A DNA stretch of 64,000 bases from the NCBI GenBank assembly GCA_018820855.1, contig JAHJNL010000089.1:1-64000 (forward strand), written 5' to 3'. The position numbers were made by a program, and so were the translations under genes. Source of the DNA: Pseudomonadota bacterium. Lineage in GTDB: Bacteria; Desulfobacterota; Desulfobulbia; Desulfobulbales; Desulfocapsaceae. Positions 4,132 through 24,307 of the stretch are shown in pieces. Positions within the stretch are counted from its first letter, which is position 1; each line of letters starts with the position of its first letter. The notes below the pieces were generated by a model. It saw nothing but the letters and a program-made list of their open reading frames with translations. It ran no database searches and was not told the origin of the DNA.

Positions 4132-4660
4132 ATCGGGTAGCCGGGGGTTTTTCTCCCCCAGCCCCCACACCACCTAGCAAGCGGGTCCGCACTAGGCGGT
4201 TCCCAAAGAACATCGGACCGTAGCCGGATGAAGTATATCCGCAGCTCTTTGACAGCAAGAAGGCGACAACTGTCGGTAATACCGAAAGCTGGACTGTCTC
4301 ACATCGCGCCTACCATTGCGGGCCCTGTCGGGTTCTATGCGTGGTAGAGCATATGAGGTCTCACTTTCCTCTATGAGTTTGGCCCTTCAGCGGGGTGAGT
4401 CTTCCAGGCTTTTCTCTTCACCTGGCACGTTTCCAGTCTCCCGTGCGCCTTTTGGGTGACTTCCTGCGCCTAATATGGCCTCTGCTGATTCCTGCCCAAA
4501 CACCCTGCATGTTACCACACAAGGCACTGCAGAAACAGACCCTACTTTGCGGTAACGCCCTTGCCTTCGGCTAGTAATTTATGTTACGTTTCAAAACGTT
4601 ACATGGAACACTTACAGGGAACGTTAACCCCATGAGTTCACGCCCATGCCGGGCGTACAC
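4132..4660 (-). mobile_element. ORF-less group IIC intron (ribozyme only)
   Basis: On the minus strand this starts GTGTACGCCCGGCATGGGCG, like domain I of group IIC introns. It ends with a domain V-like hairpin (4167-4202; GAACCGCC, central GCGG-ACC-CGC, GGTGGTGTG) followed by a G/C-rich domain VI-like hairpin and the terminus CTACCCGAT. The total of about 530 bases leaves no room for the usual reverse transcriptase, and no maturase motifs were found in any frame. It would therefore depend on a protein supplied in trans, perhaps by the copy at the left edge. The ends are accurate to about two bases. Confidence 0.8.
4167..4202 (-). ncRNA. Group II intron domain V (catalytic hairpin)
   Basis: Minus-strand CCGCCTAG pairs with CTAGGTGG around an inner GCGG/CCGC stem. 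This is the arrangement of group IIC domain V, which carries the catalytic triad near the base of the stem. It is the best single anchor for calling the surrounding 530 bases a group II intron. Confidence 0.75.
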
Positions 4661-15841: not shown

Positions 15842-15927
15842 AAAATCTTAACAAGATAATATTTTCTTACGCTCCATGACGTTTCCGGAGACACGCTATA
15901 TTATCATCATCAAAATGGAGAAGAATC

Positions 15928-16197
15928 ATGATCAAGATGCTGCTTTTTCACAGTGGGAACCCTGCTTGAGTCAGCTGTAAACAGGCTACAGTTGTAGCAA
16001 AAAAAATGGAGGAGATTTTTAAAGATAAAATTGAATTGCATATACACAGATCTGACTCGCCAGAGGCCATTCCCTATAAGCTGAGAAGCTCGACCAATGT
16101 ATTCGTCAACGATGAGTTGGTGCCCTTGAGTGTGGCAACCTCTGAAACAGAAATGGAGAAATATCTGACTGCCGTATCATCACTGAGTTCACAATAA
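15928..16197 (+). CDS. Small thioredoxin-like selenoprotein (UGA read as Sec, U-x-x-C motif)
   Basis: ATG preceded by GGAGAAG opens an 89-residue frame interrupted only by TGA at 15967-15969 (codon 14), giving FHSGNPA-U-VSCKQATV. The U-x-x-C spacing is that of the redox motif of thioredoxin/glutaredoxin folds, and it follows a first beta strand exactly as expected. The rest (about 75 residues) has the alpha-beta pattern of a short thioredoxin fold. A hairpin directly after the TGA and a strong terminator after the stop support a complete gene. The alternative, a 63-residue protein from an ATG at 16006, lacks a ribosome site. The exact family is not recognised. Confidence 0.75.
15972..15994 (+). 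promoter_or_regulatory. bSECIS-like hairpin of the small selenoprotein
   Basis: CAGCTGTA pairs with TACAGTTG (one G-U pair) around the loop AACAGGC, starting 3 bases after the TGA. The loop contains GG, as bacterial selenocysteine insertion elements do, at the usual distance from the codon. Confidence 0.6.
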
Positions 16198-16223
16198 GGC
16201 AACTTATCGTACCCCTAAACGAC

Positions 16224-16270
16224 AAAGAGCCCTGTTCCTCACAAAAAGGAACAGGGCTCTTTGATTTTTT
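16224..16270 (+). terminator. Strong intrinsic terminator, possibly bidirectional
   Basis: A perfect 16-base-pair stem (AAAGAGCCCTGTTCCT and its complement) with a 7-base loop, followed by GATTTTTT. It ends the small selenoprotein gene. On the other strand it lies about 20 bases after the mvhD stop, so it may also end the Wood-Ljungdahl operon, although the tract there is less T-rich. Confidence 0.88.
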
Positions 16271-16284
16271 CTTAAAAAAAGGAG

Positions 16285-16887
16285 TTACTCACTTAATGAA
16301 GCGAGAGACTTCTCCATTTTTGTATTGATGATTTCACTGATGTGTTCGTTAGTCCAGATGCCATCCTTGCGTACTGCTTTTGTGGCATTGCCAAAACTGA
16401 TACGAACCTTCTGGCTGGATACGGCTTCCAGGGCCTTGGAGATTCTTTCATGAACCTCTTCTTTGGAAAGTCCTTCTGCCGCACCAATTGGCCCAAGTTC
16501 CTTCATCTGTTGAGTGAACTCAGTAATCAACTGAACAAACCGAGGGGCTTCGGCAGCAGATGCCCACTTCAGACTGAAGCGCTCTTCTCGAATTCCCACA
16601 TCTTTAAGCACCTTTTTGACCAGTGCATCCATACCCATTGCATCATAATTACCGACCTGGTAATGACATTCGCCAAGTTGTCAGCCACCGCTGAAGATGG
16701 CATCAGCCCCCTCCAGAAATCCTTTAAGGACAAAGGAAGGATCAATCCTGCCGGTACACATCACTCGGATAGTCCGAAGATTTGGCGGGTATTGGAAGCG
16801 TGAGACCCCTGCTGCATCTGCGGCCGCGTAACAGCACCAGTTACAGAGGAACCCAAGGATCTTTGGGCTGAAAGTATTCTCTGACAT
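16285..16887 (-). CDS. mvhD: MvhD-type [2Fe-2S] electron-transfer subunit, selenoprotein
   Basis: The frame starts after GGAGAAGAA and contains one TGA (16681-16683, codon 69). Read as Sec it gives [18 protein letters not shown], exactly where MvhD proteins have the motif G-C-x-x-G-x-C-H-Y. The full product is 200 residues, near the family's usual length of about 140 plus a helical tail. Other cluster cysteines are C15, C18, C19 and C44. MvhD passes electrons from a hydrogenase or dehydrogenase to HdrA, here the neighbouring gene upstream in the operon. A gene caller would split it in two. Confidence 0.88.
16648..16664 (-). promoter_or_regulatory. bSECIS-like hairpin of mvhD
   Basis: On the minus strand ATTACC pairs perfectly with GGTAAT around the loop AGGTC, 16 bases after the UGA. 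A GGU-containing apical loop at this distance is the classic bacterial Sec insertion signal. Confidence 0.72.
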
Positions 16888-17071: not shown

Positions 17072-20000
17072 TCAGGCCTCAACCTTTTCCTCAACCTTTT
17101 TGTTACCAAATGCCTCAATTTGAGAAATAAGCTGTTCATTGGTAAAACCGCCCATGGATATGGCAAAGGTCGGACAGTGAGAGGCACAGATACCGCAAGC
17201 CTTACATGATGCAGAGACGGTCTCGGCCTTGCGTTTCTTATCCACCTTTTTCATCTGGATGGCCCCATAAGGACAGAGGCTGGCACAGATGCCGCAACCA
17301 ATGCAAGCATCCTGATCCACACTGGAAACAATGGGATCGACCTTAACGTAGCCCTTTACCAGAGGAATCGAGGCCTTAGCTGCTGCAGCCTGGGCCTGGA
17401 CGATTGTTTCATCTACAGGTTTGGGCCCGTGAGCCAGCCCACAGACATAAATACCCTCTACTGCCAGTTCAACAGGACGCAGCTTGACATGCGCTTCAAG
17501 GAAGAAGCCATTGGCAGTGACAGGAAGCTTCAACATCTTGGAAAGTTCCTCGGTTCCGTCGGGAACAATACCGACAGACAGTACCACCAGATCAGGATTA
17601 AGACTCACGTCTTCCTGCATAATGGAATCAAAAAAGTCTATGTGTACTTTCCCGGATTTCTGGCTCACTTCAGGTTTACGATCCATTTCATAAGGGATAA
17701 AAACAACTCCCTTTTTGCGGGCCTCAAGATAGGCATCTTCAGCGTAGCCGTAGGTGCGCATATCGCGATACAGGACGATAATCTGAGAATCCGGATTGAT
17801 CTCTTTTATCTTGAGGATATTTTTTATGGCATGGTTACAGCAGACCTTGGAGCAGTAATTCAGATCATCACCACGGGAACCTGCACACTGGATCATGACA
17901 ATGGAATCAGGTGCTCGGTTTTTGGCCTTGCCCGCCAGTTGAGCTTCCAGTTCCTGCTGAGTTATGACTTTCTTGGATTGACCAAGCAGGTATTTATCCG
18001 GACGATGTTCGTGACCACCGGTTGCCACGATGATGACACCATGATCAACGGTATGTTCCTTCTTTTCCGCCCCTTTTCCGCTTTCGATAACAGAGGAAAA
18101 ATTTCCGACAAAGCCGGATGTCATGGCAAGTCTTGCGTCAGTTATTACATCTATTTTATTAGACTTTTTCACTTTATCAGAAATAGTCTTCAGATAATCT
18201 GCAACCGTGTCACCGGCCAGAGTATTTTTCAGATTCTGAAGATTGCCGCCAATCTTTGCGGATTTTTCAATAAGAACAGAAGAAAAACCCTGGTCTGCAA
18301 GAGACAGAGCAGCAGTCATTCCGGCCACACCACCACCAAGGATGACTGCCTTGGGGGTAACAGGGACACTCTGTTCAGGCAAAGGCTGGATGTGAGCTGC
18401 CTTGGAAACCGCCATACGCACCAGATCCTTGGATTTCTGAGTAGCCGCCTCAGGTTCGTTGGCATGAACCCAGGAACATTGGTCACGGATATTGACCATC
18501 TCAAAAAGATTCCTGTTCAGTCCGGCATCCTTCAGGGTCTCCTGAAAGAGCGGTTCATGAGTTCGTGGCGAACAAGCGGCAATAACCACCCGGTTCAGCC
18601 TTTGCGCCTTGATAGTCTTCTTGATCTGCTCCTGAGCATCCTGAGAACAGGAATAGAGATTTTCGGTATAATAGGTGACATTTTCCATGCCCCCTGCCTC
18701 CTCGGCGACCCCAGGACAGTCAACAACAGAACTGATATTAATACCACAGTGGCAGACAAAGACACCGATCCGCACCTCGTCGTCAGCACTCACCATCAGT
18801 TCTTCCGGATACTCCTTACTTACCGTCCCCTTCCCTCGCTGATTTTTCAGCACAGAAGAGGCCAGAGAAGCGGCTCCGGAAGACTGGGTTACAGACTCAG
18901 GGATATCCTTGGGCCCCTGGAAGGCGCCTGCGACTACAATTCCTTCCTGGCTGGTCTGCAGCGGGGCGAAGGTATCGGTCTTACAGAAATTATAGCGATT
19001 CAGGTCAATCTTGGTGATATCGGCAATCTTTTCTGCATCCTTAGGGGATTCAAGGCCCACAGAAAGAACAACCATGTCATGGGATTCGAACTTATGCTGA
19101 CCGTCAAGAGTGGCATAGGTCAGTTTGAGATGATTTTCCCAGGGGGTAACATCGGCAACCTTAGCCCGGACAAACTTGATGCCAATGGCCTCTGCACGAA
19201 GGCGGGCAGCATCAAAATCCTTGCCCTGAGTTCGAATATCCATGTAGTAGATGGTGATATCCACTTCCGGATCATGTTCCTTGGTTACCAGGGCCTCTTT
19301 GATGGCATACATACAGCAGACCGAAGAACAGTAGCCGTTATTGCAGCCTATATCCCTGGAGCCGACACACTGAATAAAGGCCATGGACTTTGGATGGCGA
19401 CCGTCTGAGAAGCATTTGATCTCACCCATGAACGGTCCTGAAGCAGTTGTCATCCTTTCGTATTCGAAGGAAGTAACAATGTCCGGATGCTTGCCGTAGC
19501 CGAATTTCGCCAGGGTCTCAGGAGCAATCTTACCAAATCCAGGAGAAAGAATGACGGCACCGATCTTCAGATCACGGGCCTCAGGCTTCTGATTGAAATT
19601 GATGGCATGACTCTGACAGACGGGCACACAGATCTGACAGGTATCGTGCTGCAGGTACATACAGGACGATGGATCGATATAATAGGTTGCCGGTACGGCC
19701 TGGGCATAATCGATGTGGATGGGTCGCGTGATGGCCAACCCCTCATTATAAGGGTCCACATGATGTTTGGGGCAGTACTGGGTGCAAAGCCCACAGGCAG
19801 TACAGGCATCCGCATCAATATAACGCGGACGAATATTAAGCTTTGCTGTGAAATTCCCAGCTGTTCCTTCCAATGCAAGCAGATCTGCATTGGTGACCAT
19901 CTCTATATTGGGAGACCGACCGGCCTCTACCAGTTTTGGTGCCAGGATTCAGAGCGAGCAGTCATTGGTCGGAAACGTCTTGTCCAGCTGGGCCATGACA

Positions 20001-20137
20001 CCACCAACGGCAGGTGATTTTTCGACCAGATAGACATAATAACCAAGCTCGGTCATATCAAGGGCAGCCTGGATACCGGCGATACCTCCGCCGAGTATCA
20101 TAACAGCCCCTTCCCTGTGCATCATTGCTTTACCCAT
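17072..20137 (-). CDS. hdrA: HdrA-type FAD iron-sulfur protein with two HdrA modules, selenoprotein
   Basis: Reading the TGA at 19949-19951 (codon 63) as Sec gives one 1021-residue protein after a good AGGAG site. The first module starts [15 protein letters not shown] and has [17 protein letters not shown], where HdrA proteins carry a conserved cysteine. A ferredoxin-type site [12 protein letters not shown] follows. The second module begins [12 protein letters not shown] near residue 430 and has its own FAD site [16 protein letters not shown]. The C-terminus holds two [4Fe-4S] motifs ([12 protein letters not shown] and [12 protein letters not shown]). It is thus a QmoA-like plus HdrA/QmoB-like composite. 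It probably bifurcates or confurcates electrons between MvhD, ferredoxin and formate or NAD(P)H. Confidence 0.9.
19920..19946 (-). promoter_or_regulatory. bSECIS-like hairpin of hdrA
   Basis: On the minus strand, directly after the UGA, CTGGC and ACCA pair with TGGT and GCCGG around the loop AAAC, with an internal AGAG bulge. This is compatible with a bacterial SECIS, although the loop lacks GG, so it is weaker than the others here. Confidence 0.5.
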
Positions 20138-20185: not shown

Positions 20186-23100
20186 TCAGGCATCAACCTT
20201 TTCGACCTTGATTGTACAGAGTTTATACTCGGGAGTCCTGGACAACCGATCCAGGGCATCCAGCGTCAGGAAGTTTACCAGCGCTTCAATATGATTATAG
20301 GTGGTAAAAATAGTACCTTCCTGTGAACGATCAGTAATGGTTGCAGGCATCTCAACAGAGCCGCGACGAGAGGTCATTCGGATCAAGTCGCCTTCTGCAA
20401 TTTCCATACGTTCTGCATCTACCGGATTGATCTGTGCCAAGGCCTGCGGACTAATTGCATTCAACTCGACGGTTTTGCCGGTCATGGAGCTGAAATTATA
20501 GCGGGCCAGATCTCGTCCGGTGGTAAAATACATCGGATATTCTTCATCTATCTGTTCCACCGGCGGTATATAATCTTCCGGAATAAAGAGGCCGCGTCCT
20601 CTGGTGAAACTCTTGGTATGAAGCACGGGTGTCCCCGGATGATTTTCATCAGGTACCGGCCACTGCAGACCAACCTCTTCCAGACGTTTATAGGTAATTC
20701 CCTTGTATTGCGGCAGGAGGCTGCGAATCTCTTCAAAAATATCCTCAGCACACTTGTAATCCATTTCGTAACCCATCTTGTGGGAAAGATCACAGAAGAT
20801 CTGCCAGTCAGGCCGGGCTTCGCCGGGAGGATTCACGGCCTTGCGCACCCGCTGCACCCTGCGTTCGGTGTTGGCGAATGTGCCGTCTTTCTCGGCAAAA
20901 CATGCTGCAGGTAAAACAATATCTGCGGCCTTTGCCGTGTCTGTGAGAAAGATATCCTGAACAACAAGGAAATCCACTTTTTCCAATGCCTGCTTGACAT
21001 GGGCAATATTCGGATCTGCAACGGCTGGATCTTCACCAAAGATATAAAGGCCGCGAATATCCCCGCTAAGGACATTGTCCCATACCTCGGTGGCCGGTTT
21101 TCCGGGTCGACGCGGCAATTTGACTTTCCATTTCTCTTCATAACGGTCAAAGAGATCCACATTATCGAGGGCGGTGTAGCCTGGCAGATTATTAAACAAG
21201 GCGCCCATATCACAGGCACCCTGGACATTGTTCTGTCCTCGCAGAGGATTACAGCCACCGCCTTCCACACCCACCTTTCCGCAGAGCATGGCGAGGTTAG
21301 CAATGGACTTGACACGGTCTGTGCCGGTCACATAATGGGTAATGCCCATGCCATGATAGATAGCATGACGCCCTTGGGCGGCATACATCCTGGCTACGGT
21401 AAAGAGCTGCTCAGTGGGCAGGCCGGTAATTTTCGAGACGTAGTCAGGTGTATATTTTTTCATCACCCGGACCAGTTCATCAAAATCCTCAGTCCGTTCT
21501 TCCACAAACTTTTTATCCCAGAGATCTTCTTCCAGGATTATGTGCATGAGGCCGTTTAAGAAGGCCACATCAGTACCGGGTATTATGCGCAGCCAGTGAT
21601 CGGCAGTCTCTGCCAGTCTGGTCTTGCGTGGATCTACAACAATAAGTTTTGCACCGCGTTTGACAGCCTGATGAATCCGCATGCCGATGGTCGGATGTCC
21701 GGTATCAGGGTTGGAACCAATCATGAGGAACAGATCTGTATTCCTGGAATCCATGATTGAGTTTGTCATTGCGCCGCTTCCGAATGTGAGGGCCAAACTG
21801 GCCACCGTGGGAGCGTGTCAGAGTCGGGCACAATGGTCGATATTATTCGTCCCTATGGAAGTTCGCATGAACTTCTGCATGAGGTAATTTTCCTCATTGG
21901 TCGCACGGGCACAGCTGAAGCCGGCAATGGAATCAGGTCCATACATGGCCTTCAGATCAAAGAACTTCTTGGCTGTATATTCCAGGGCCTCATCCCAGGT
22001 AGTCTCGACCAGCATACCGTTTTTACGGATCAGCGGTTTTTTCAACCGATCCTTGTGCTGAATAAACTCGTGTCCCAGGCGACCCTTCACACATAAGGCG
22101 CCATAATTCGGGGCCAGATGCTTCTCTGAAGTTACTTCTAAAATGGTATCGCCCTTGACCCGCAGAAGCATCTGACACCCTGCTCCGCAATAAGGACAGG
22201 TGGTACGTACCTCTTTAACATCTTCTCCCTGCACCGGGATGATCTGAGCCTTCTTGTTCAGGGCTCCGGTGGAACAGTTGTCTACACAGGCGCCACAGGA
22301 GACACAGTTCTCCTTAAACTTGATGACAAGATCCAGAGGACGCCCTTTCTCATCCATGGAACCGGCACTGATCTGTAAGGCATCATATTCGCAGGCACGT
22401 TCGCAGCGCTTGCAGTAGATACACTTGTCACGATCAACAATAAATGCAGGGTGTGAGTAATCCTTGCCATAAATCGGTGTCGTCCCCATTCCGATCTTAT
22501 TGATATTGACATTATTATCAATAGAGAGTCGCTTCAGATCACAGCGGTCAAATGCGGTACAGCCACAGGAAAGGCAGCGCTCTGCCTCTCTTTGGGCCAT
22601 TTTTTCCGTAAAACCGAGTTTGACCTCGTCAAAGTCCTGACGACAGATCTCCGGTGGCCTGGTCGGCATTTTTTCGCGGAGTTTGACATCTATGCCGTCA
22701 AAATTTTTGAGAGAGACATCATCAAAGCCCTTACCACGTGTAAAATTGAAACGGTTATCGGCCGGTTCTTTTTCCACATCCATGATATAGGCATGTATAT
22801 TGGCCACAGCGCGTCTTGCCGAAACAACCGCCTGAATAACAGATTTCGGTCCGGTGGCAGCATCCCCACCGGCAAAAACTCCGTCGATATTTGTCTGAGA
22901 ACTTCTCGGATTTGCAGCAATCATGTTGCGGGGAGTAAGTTCGATGGATTTTTCCAGTTCTCCACCTTCGAAATACTCATTCACAGCAAGTTGGCCAAGC
23001 GATGTGACTATAGAATCAACCTGCAGGATGTTAGTGGAGCCTGGGATGGGTTCAGGACTTCGATTTCCTTTGGCGTCAGGCTTGCCAAGTTTCATCCTGA

Positions 23101-24307
23101 TAATTTCAAGTTTCAACCGCGAAGGACCATCTCCTGTATCACAGATCTCAACCGGGGAGGCCATAAGCAAAAATTGAGTCCCTTCTTTTCCAGCTTCCCT
23201 GATATTACGCTGGTGGGCTGGCATCTCTAAACGGGCCTGCGGATAGACAACAGTGACCTCTTGTACCCCCTGACGCAACAGGGTACGGGCTATTTCCATA
23301 GCTATATTGTTGCCGCCAATGACTGCGGCGCGTTTTCCCATGTCAAGATGTTTGCCCTCAGCCACTTTTTTGAGATAGTTCATGGCAGAATAGACATGGG
23401 GATTCACGCAGCCTTTGATATCGAGAGGTATATCTACACCTGCTCCGCTTGCGATAAACACGGCATCAAATCCCTGTTCCTTGAGAGATTCAATGGTAAA
23501 ATCCTTGCCCCATTTCTGGCTTAATTTAACGGAAATGCCAAGCCGAAGGATGGCATTTATTTCATAATCAAGGACATCGCGGGGTATGCGAAACTCAAGG
23601 AAGCCGTAACGCAGAGCACCTCCGAGTTTTGGTGCAGCCTCATAAATAGTTACATCATGCCCTCTTCTCGTGAGAAAATAGGCTGCTGTAAGTCCTGCAG
23701 GACCTCCGCCAATAACCGCTACCCGTTTTCCGGTGGGTTTATCCTTGGGGATTTTGAGGTCAATCTCATGCGTCATGCACCAATCAGCAACGAAGCGCTT
23801 GAGATGATTGATGGAAACAGGTTCATCCACCAGGAGACGGCGGCATCTGGTCTCACAGAACCGCGGGCAGACACGGCCGACTGAAAACGGCATGGGATTA
23901 CGTTCCATGACCAGGCGCAAGGCCTCTTCATATTGGCCCTTAGCCACATGGGCGATATAGCCCTGGACATTGATCTGACCGGGGCAAGTCAGGTTGCATG
24001 GGGCCTTACAGTCACCAAAATGAGTTTCTGCAAGGATGCCCAGACGTTCCTGACGGTGAGCAGTGATTCTGTCGGAAACAGTTTTCACCACCATCCCTTC
24101 TTTAGCCAAAGTCACACAGGAACGCATCAACTCGTCCTGGCCCTCGACCTCAACCACGCACAACTGACACGGAGTGTCCGAGGGTTTTCCTTCCACATGA
24201 CAAAGCGTGGGGATGACAATGTCTGATCGCCTGGCCACCTCTAAGAGGGTAAGATCCTTTTCGGCAACGATCTGACAGCCGTTTATGTTAAGTGTTACGG
24301 TATTCAT
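20186..24307 (-). CDS. fdhA: Selenocysteine formate dehydrogenase fused to a GltD-like NAD(P)H module
   Basis: With TGA at 21818-21820 (codon 830) read as Sec the product is 1373 residues; the context DHCARL-U-HAPTVA is the active-site signature of Sec formate dehydrogenases. The order is an N-terminal [2Fe-2S] domain (CHVEG..CQLCVVE), a GltD-like FAD/NAD(P) domain with GGGPAGLTAAYFL, two [4Fe-4S] ferredoxin motifs (CIYCKRCERAC and CVSCGACVDNC), then the CPYCGAGC cluster and the molybdopterin/tungstopterin domain. It should interconvert CO2 and formate and exchange electrons with NAD(P)H and HdrA. The ribosome site is weak. Confidence 0.92.
21786..21806 (-). promoter_or_regulatory. bSECIS-like hairpin of fdhA
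   Basis: Minus-strand GGCCA pairs with TGGCC around the tri-loop GTT, about 15 bases after the UGA, flanked by further partial pairing. The G at the start of the loop fits the pattern of fdhF-type insertion elements. Confidence 0.62.

Follow-up and report, generated by a model that had tools for sequence, protein, structure and literature searches.

By its profile match, the gene at positions 15928 to 16197 of the window (the whole 64,000-nt stretch of DNA analysed here) is a member of the already named family TsoX and not of a new family. TsoX is most likely a selenium thioredoxin fed by thioredoxin reductase. We hold it highly probable that in this tsoX a SECIS element directs the reading of UGA as selenocysteine (Sec), and that the product acts as a stand-alone, reductase-fed selenium thioredoxin with a thioredoxin fold. 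By computation we show that the gene belongs to the family, that its UGA is conserved, that a hairpin covaries, that the genome encodes the Sec machinery and that the fold is predicted to be that of thioredoxin.

Family membership and gene structure

The window protein matches the NCBIfam profile NF045809 ('HSGNPxU motif (seleno)protein TsoX') with an E value of 1.1e-36 and a score of 124.8 bits (cut-off 52), over positions 1-80 of 82. The original prediction, which could place the protein in no known family, was wrong on this point. The family already stands in a published table: a 2026 review (PMC13188914) lists 'HSGNPxU motif selenoprotein TsoX, NF045809, UxxC', citing Haft and Tolstoy 2025. 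A literature search for TsoX, its motif and the Tso names, at the level of titles and passages, returned nothing evidently on bacterial TsoX beyond this review; one of the papers returned, PMC10536192, contains a single word that begins with TsoY. In the literature passages covered here, we found no mention of SECIS covariation in TsoX, of Thr in place of its cis-proline, of its occurrence as a lone gene or of its link to a reductase. In Pfam, no family matched the window TsoX up to an E value of 10.

Of 257 genomes of the class, 24 exceeded the NF045809 cut-off, as did 21 of 395 sampled from the phylum; 5 genomes are in both sets, giving 40 TsoX genomes in total, the window genome included; rows below the cut-off (L016, L017, L043, L044 and L061 to L064) were dropped before counting, and L080, a repeat of L018, was counted once. 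None of 14 control genomes matched. The window protein itself as query matched 17 of 144 related genomes at E 0.01, and gave one relative when genome contigs were searched with this single sequence. Two of the 17, the weak matches in G120, with a CANC motif, and G067, were rejected as TsoX. Zero matches were found in the phages, plasmids and viral contigs searched, and PHROGs gave two weak matches only (E 0.14 and 0.2).

In the tree, the window copy groups with those of G175 and G250, genomes that belong to two further families within the order (support 100/99). Among 19 genomes of the same genus only G006 has TsoX, and its copy does not group with that of the window. Horizontal transfer and repeated loss are both possible histories.

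The features of the gene and its surroundings are as follows.

15928-16197, forward strand: tsoX coding sequence, NF045809 match, 89 amino acids with Sec14, stop TAA at 16195-16197
15967-15969, forward strand: UGA codon 14, putative Sec, first residue of U-x-x-C
15917-15920, forward strand: ribosome-binding site GGAG, 7 nt upstream of the ATG
15985-15998, forward strand: putative bacterial SECIS hairpin GCUAC-AGUU-GUAGC
16223-16263, forward strand: nearly palindromic intrinsic terminator, 17 pairs (9 G-C) followed by ATTTTTT, between tsoX and the convergent mvhD-like gene
15876-15904, forward strand: possible weak sigma-70-like promoter, 9/12 matches, no better than chance
16285-16887, reverse strand: MvhD-like gene (SGG-U), one in-frame internal TGA, beside tsoX
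17072-20137, reverse strand: HdrA-like gene (CSL-U), one in-frame internal TGA, ends in TGA
20186-24307, reverse strand: FdhA-like gene (CARL-U), one in-frame internal TGA, ends in TGA

Read with TGA as Sec, the 89-residue protein starts MIKMLLFHSGNPAUVSCKQATVV, and its residues 8-17 (HSGNPAUVSC) hold both the HSGNPxU motif and UxxC. A gamma-glutamylcyclotransferase-like gene of the same orientation ends 86 nt before tsoX, and the convergent mvhD-like gene ends 87 nt beyond tsoX. The region holds two terminator-like sites where shuffles give 1.0, while its two sigma-70-like promoters were not above the chance level of 2.5. Altogether, 15928-16197 looks like a real, well-conserved gene. The original prediction had described a tiny thioredoxin-like selenoprotein with an 89-codon frame, a TGA at codon 14 in a U-x-x-C position (UVSC), a good ribosome site and a strong terminator past the stop; the frame and its signals are all there, and the reading as a tiny thioredoxin-like selenoprotein is supported. 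It had also warned that ordinary gene callers would miss the gene, and the standard-code ORF listing does begin only at 16006, which confirms that standard-code annotation cuts the gene short.

Predicted decoding of the UGA codon as selenocysteine

The computed evidence that UGA codon 14 would be read as selenocysteine is strong. UGA occupies this codon in 37 of the 40 homologous genes (40 genomes) and Cys in one. The three copies that lack it (L087 2364-2627, minus strand; L082 6967-7215; L101 155-412) have Cys/Ser (G250), Leu/Tyr (G201) and Leu/Cys (G539) in the active site, with TTA for both Leu codons, and their genomes still have tRNA-Sec and SelB. Homologues with U or C at codon 14, the check that had been proposed, were thus found. 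The absence of any Cys homologue had been named as grounds for rejection, but the Cys copy exists, even if rare within TsoX (1/40, G250); distant CxxC matches below the cut-off, such as that in G120, exist besides. Around the UGA, H8 and G10 are invariant and N11, P12 and C17 nearly so, and pN is well under pS on either side of it. Downstream of the UGA, the comparison of the window copy with its nearest relative, L018, gave a pN of 0.141 and a pS of 0.71 (near saturation), and seven close pairs gave a pN of 0.006-0.161 and a pS of 0.110-0.295. The window genome has the Sec machinery (selA 609.5, selB 367.7, selD 366.6 and tRNA-Sec 73.4 bits). Its SelD match (L146, G000 C91:9507-10448, minus strand) contains one in-frame TGA, so SelD is probably itself a selenoprotein.

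It is very improbable that the UGA is a true stop, leaving a 63-residue protein from the ATG at 16006 or a decaying pseudogene. The start of the standard-code listing and the loss of the outer pair from the window hairpin would suit such a gene, but the invariant and nearly invariant residues surround a UGA kept in 37 of 40 genomes, and pN lies far below pS on both sides of it. A product beginning at 16006, which the original prediction would have counted against itself, is unlikely because the HSGNP stretch of the N terminus is conserved and the start there is preceded by a Shine-Dalgarno-like sequence in 38 of 40 loci, while an ATG at the internal place with such a sequence occurs in just one of the 37 UGA rows. 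The presence of UGA inside conserved genes would also be expected if the genetic code were changed and UGA stood for an ordinary amino acid, which we regard as the most improbable reading of all. Against it, the nearby HdrA-like and FdhA-like genes, each with its one internal TGA, end in TGA, so that UGA also serves as a stop in this genome, and tRNA-Sec, SelA, SelB and SelD are all encoded there.

A conserved hairpin of 5 pairs with a 4-nt loop starts 15 nt past the UGA. In the 37 UGA rows, columns 18-23 pair with columns 28-33 and the second loop position is G without exception; the RNAalifold consensus has the same six pairs. The Cys copy of G250 is the sole row of 40 without the loop G. 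In the covariation set of 35 distinct rows, 96.7% of the 210 cells are paired; when the partner strand is shifted by 1 to 3 columns, the figure is 19 to 53%. Cells changed on both sides number 17 against a mean of 5.6 (none of 500 shuffles as high), and the covariation score is 0.308 against 0.178 (0/500); these shuffle counts are not probabilities because the rows are related sequences. Two of the five covariation measures are weaker and not clear of the shuffles: the number of pairs changed on both sides is 2 where shuffles give 1.0 (58/500 as high), and that of further pair types is 7 where they give 5.9 (40/500). The strongest pair, 21-30, is U-A in 20, C-G in 15, A-U in 1 and G-G in 1 of the 37 rows. 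In most rows it links the third position of an Ala codon with that of a Val codon, and with a third codon position on each side it is not readily explained by constraint on the protein.

The window copy has lost the outer pair G18-C33, and its hairpin is weaker than in most rows, with an energy of -6.3 kcal/mol alone. In a 36-nt fold of the window a rival hairpin wins at -9.2 kcal/mol, whereas the minimum-energy structure of 54 nt (15967-16020), at -10.2 kcal/mol, contains the conserved hairpin. The 36-nt minimum-energy fold holds the conserved hairpin in 34 of 40 loci, the window being among the other 6. An 8-pair hairpin with the loop AACAGGC, seen in 33-47 nt folds from the UGA, was rejected as the SECIS, being unconserved and unremarkable (z -1.1 for 15964-16010). 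The expectation of a bSECIS-like hairpin behind the UGA therefore holds for 15985-15998, but the hairpin that short folds produce is a different, unconserved one. The RNA folding suggested for 15967-16010 thus gave another hairpin in short folds, with an unremarkable z, and the conserved one in the best 54-nt fold. As given in passages of PMC13188914, the model of a bacterial SECIS has a loop of 3-9 nt, a stem of 4-16 pairs, a G in the first two loop positions, a UGA-loop spacing of 16-37 nt and a minimum free energy of at most -7.5 kcal/mol. The window hairpin agrees in its stem of 5 pairs, its 4-nt loop AGUU, in which a U comes after the G of position 2, and its distance of 20 nt from the UGA. 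It differs in energy, which reaches the published limit only in the 54-nt context, the -9.2 kcal/mol of the 36-nt fold belonging to the other hairpin. Judged from sequence and folding, 15985-15998 fits the published model apart from this borderline energy.

Predicted fold, possible electron source and possible partners

The fold of TsoX is predicted to be that of thioredoxin. A model built from two sequences (pLDDT 92.1, pTM 0.81) found thioredoxins in Foldseek, with a best E value of 4.1e-4 and three matches at 0.001 or better. In structural comparison a thioredoxin ranks first, with Z 12.1 and 1.6 A across 83 residues; KaiB in its switched form also reaches Z 11.7. Sequence identity to the structural matches is 10-27%. 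While the single protein had no significant phmmer match among solved structures (best E 0.76), the 40-row family profile found 1nho at E 9.6e-5 together with E. coli thioredoxin variants. Small thioredoxins of the MJ0307 type (TIGR00411; PDB 1nho) are similar in length, but the TIGR00411 match of the window TsoX is weak (E 0.0023) and, at 18 bits, far under the cut-off of 92.75.

TsoX shares with thioredoxin (Trx1, TrxA) the predicted fold and an active-site pair two residues apart at a helix start. The active-site motif of thioredoxin is WCGPC. In its place TsoX has GNPAUVSC, with Sec for the first Cys; it is 89 amino acids long, aligns from about residue 20 of thioredoxins onward and lacks a Pfam match. 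The cis-proline place corresponds to residue 56 in the alignments with a proline there, and Thr is found at this residue in 38 of 40 rows, including all 37 Sec rows; the three non-Sec rows have F, T and A. Ser55 was rejected as the equivalent because the profile alignments place Thr56 there. None of the 40 rows has Pro at residue 55 or 56, so that the classical cis-proline is lacking throughout. With Thr in place of the cis-proline, the chemistry of TsoX may differ from that of thioredoxin.

A thioredoxin reductase lies beside TsoX or is fused to it in 3 of the 40 loci; if three such genes per 4 Mb genome are assumed, chance would place about 0.12 within 2 kb of these loci. In G394 (L103 6597-7808) a single frame of 404 amino acids matches both TIGR01292 (384 bits, cut-off 343.45) and NF045809 (94.8 bits); this fusion comes from a single assembly whose contamination is estimated at 9%, and the reductase part may have an internal start of its own. 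G394 has a second thioredoxin reductase on the opposite strand, at a distance of 4.7 kb. In G050 the reductase ends about 48 nt upstream of tsoX, and in G615 a partial match (residues 4-139) lies 1.2-1.6 kb upstream. The fusion and the neighbours hint at the electron source of TsoX and suggest a testable biochemical partner for the family. L103 also carries, at about 7.9 kb and about 1.3 kb past the tsoX start, a small UGA-holding frame with a weak match to NF041115 (metal-binding selenoprotein; 33.3 bits, cut-off 95).

The partners of TsoX in relatives are probably the Tso operon proteins. Of the 40 genomes, 22 have a TsoA gene (18 over the cut-off and 4 below) that shares contig and strand with tsoX and lies no more than 4 kb from it; TsoC is near tsoX in 12 and TsoY in 6; a TsoA match is absent from the other 18. 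TsoA also occurs in 6 of 30 genomes without TsoX over the cut-off, a set chosen and not random. The window copy is a nearly full-length TsoX with HSGNPAU, UxxC and UGA at the Sec site, but it stands alone: its genome gave no match to TsoA, TsoC or TsoY and eight weak matches to TsoB, none over the cut-off, and no operon of TsoA, TsoB and TsoC with TsoX nearby was found there. TsoX in this genome would therefore need a general reductase and another target. Such a copy, without detected other Tso proteins, offers a simple case for learning the role of TsoX itself.

For TsoX we infer Sec insertion and selenium-thioredoxin activity. SelB and Sec-tRNA would read UGA codon 14 under the direction of the stem-loop at 15985-15998, yielding an 89-residue stand-alone thioredoxin-fold protein with the active site Sec14-x-x-Cys17. 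Thioredoxin reductase would reduce its Sec-Cys selenosulfide, and the selenolate so formed would go on to attack a disulfide, or an oxidised bond of similar kind, in its partner.

It is possible, though we think it doubtful, that TsoX is no thioredoxin-like electron carrier and instead uses Sec14 and Cys17 to bind or transfer a metal(loid) or chalcogen, the Thr leaving the site open to metal. The invariance of Thr56 in the Sec rows, against F, T and A in those without Sec, would suit this function, as would a passage in PMC2757866 which, with reference to Su 2007, says that metal binding may be prevented by the cis-proline. Also in its favour, 16 of 41 regions hold an ORF of one blastp cluster, whose G532 member is an ArsR-family regulator by Pfam. 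Against it, the region of the window lacks this ORF, ArsR-type regulators answer also to redox and sulfur signals, and a thioredoxin reductase neighbours TsoX or is fused to it in 3 of the 40 loci. Rather improbable to us is a more elaborate scheme in which TsoX would be the dedicated selenium thioredoxin of a separate branch, passing electrons from thioredoxin reductase to the Tso selenoproteins, with the Thr in place of cis-proline letting the Sec-Cys site retain either a metal(loid) or a mixed selenosulfide that is long-lived, and with the solitary window copy outside the Tso pathway.

The other genes around the window tsoX are probably unrelated to it, since the FMN reductase, transglutaminase-like, gamma-glutamylcyclotransferase-like and mvhD-like neighbours had no counterpart at E 1e-4 in the 40 other regions (4 to 15 kb long, one repeating another). 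The first three had been considered as TsoX partners. Judged by eye, methyltransferase-like genes lie near some solitary tsoX copies. The MvhD-like, HdrA-like and FdhA-like genes form a row adjoining tsoX in the window; passages of PMC13188914 name hdrA and frhD as selenoprotein genes in Deltaproteobacteria. Elsewhere in the window, positions 4447-4526 on the minus strand match a group II intron domain (RF01998) with 43.3 bits against a gathering threshold of 35.
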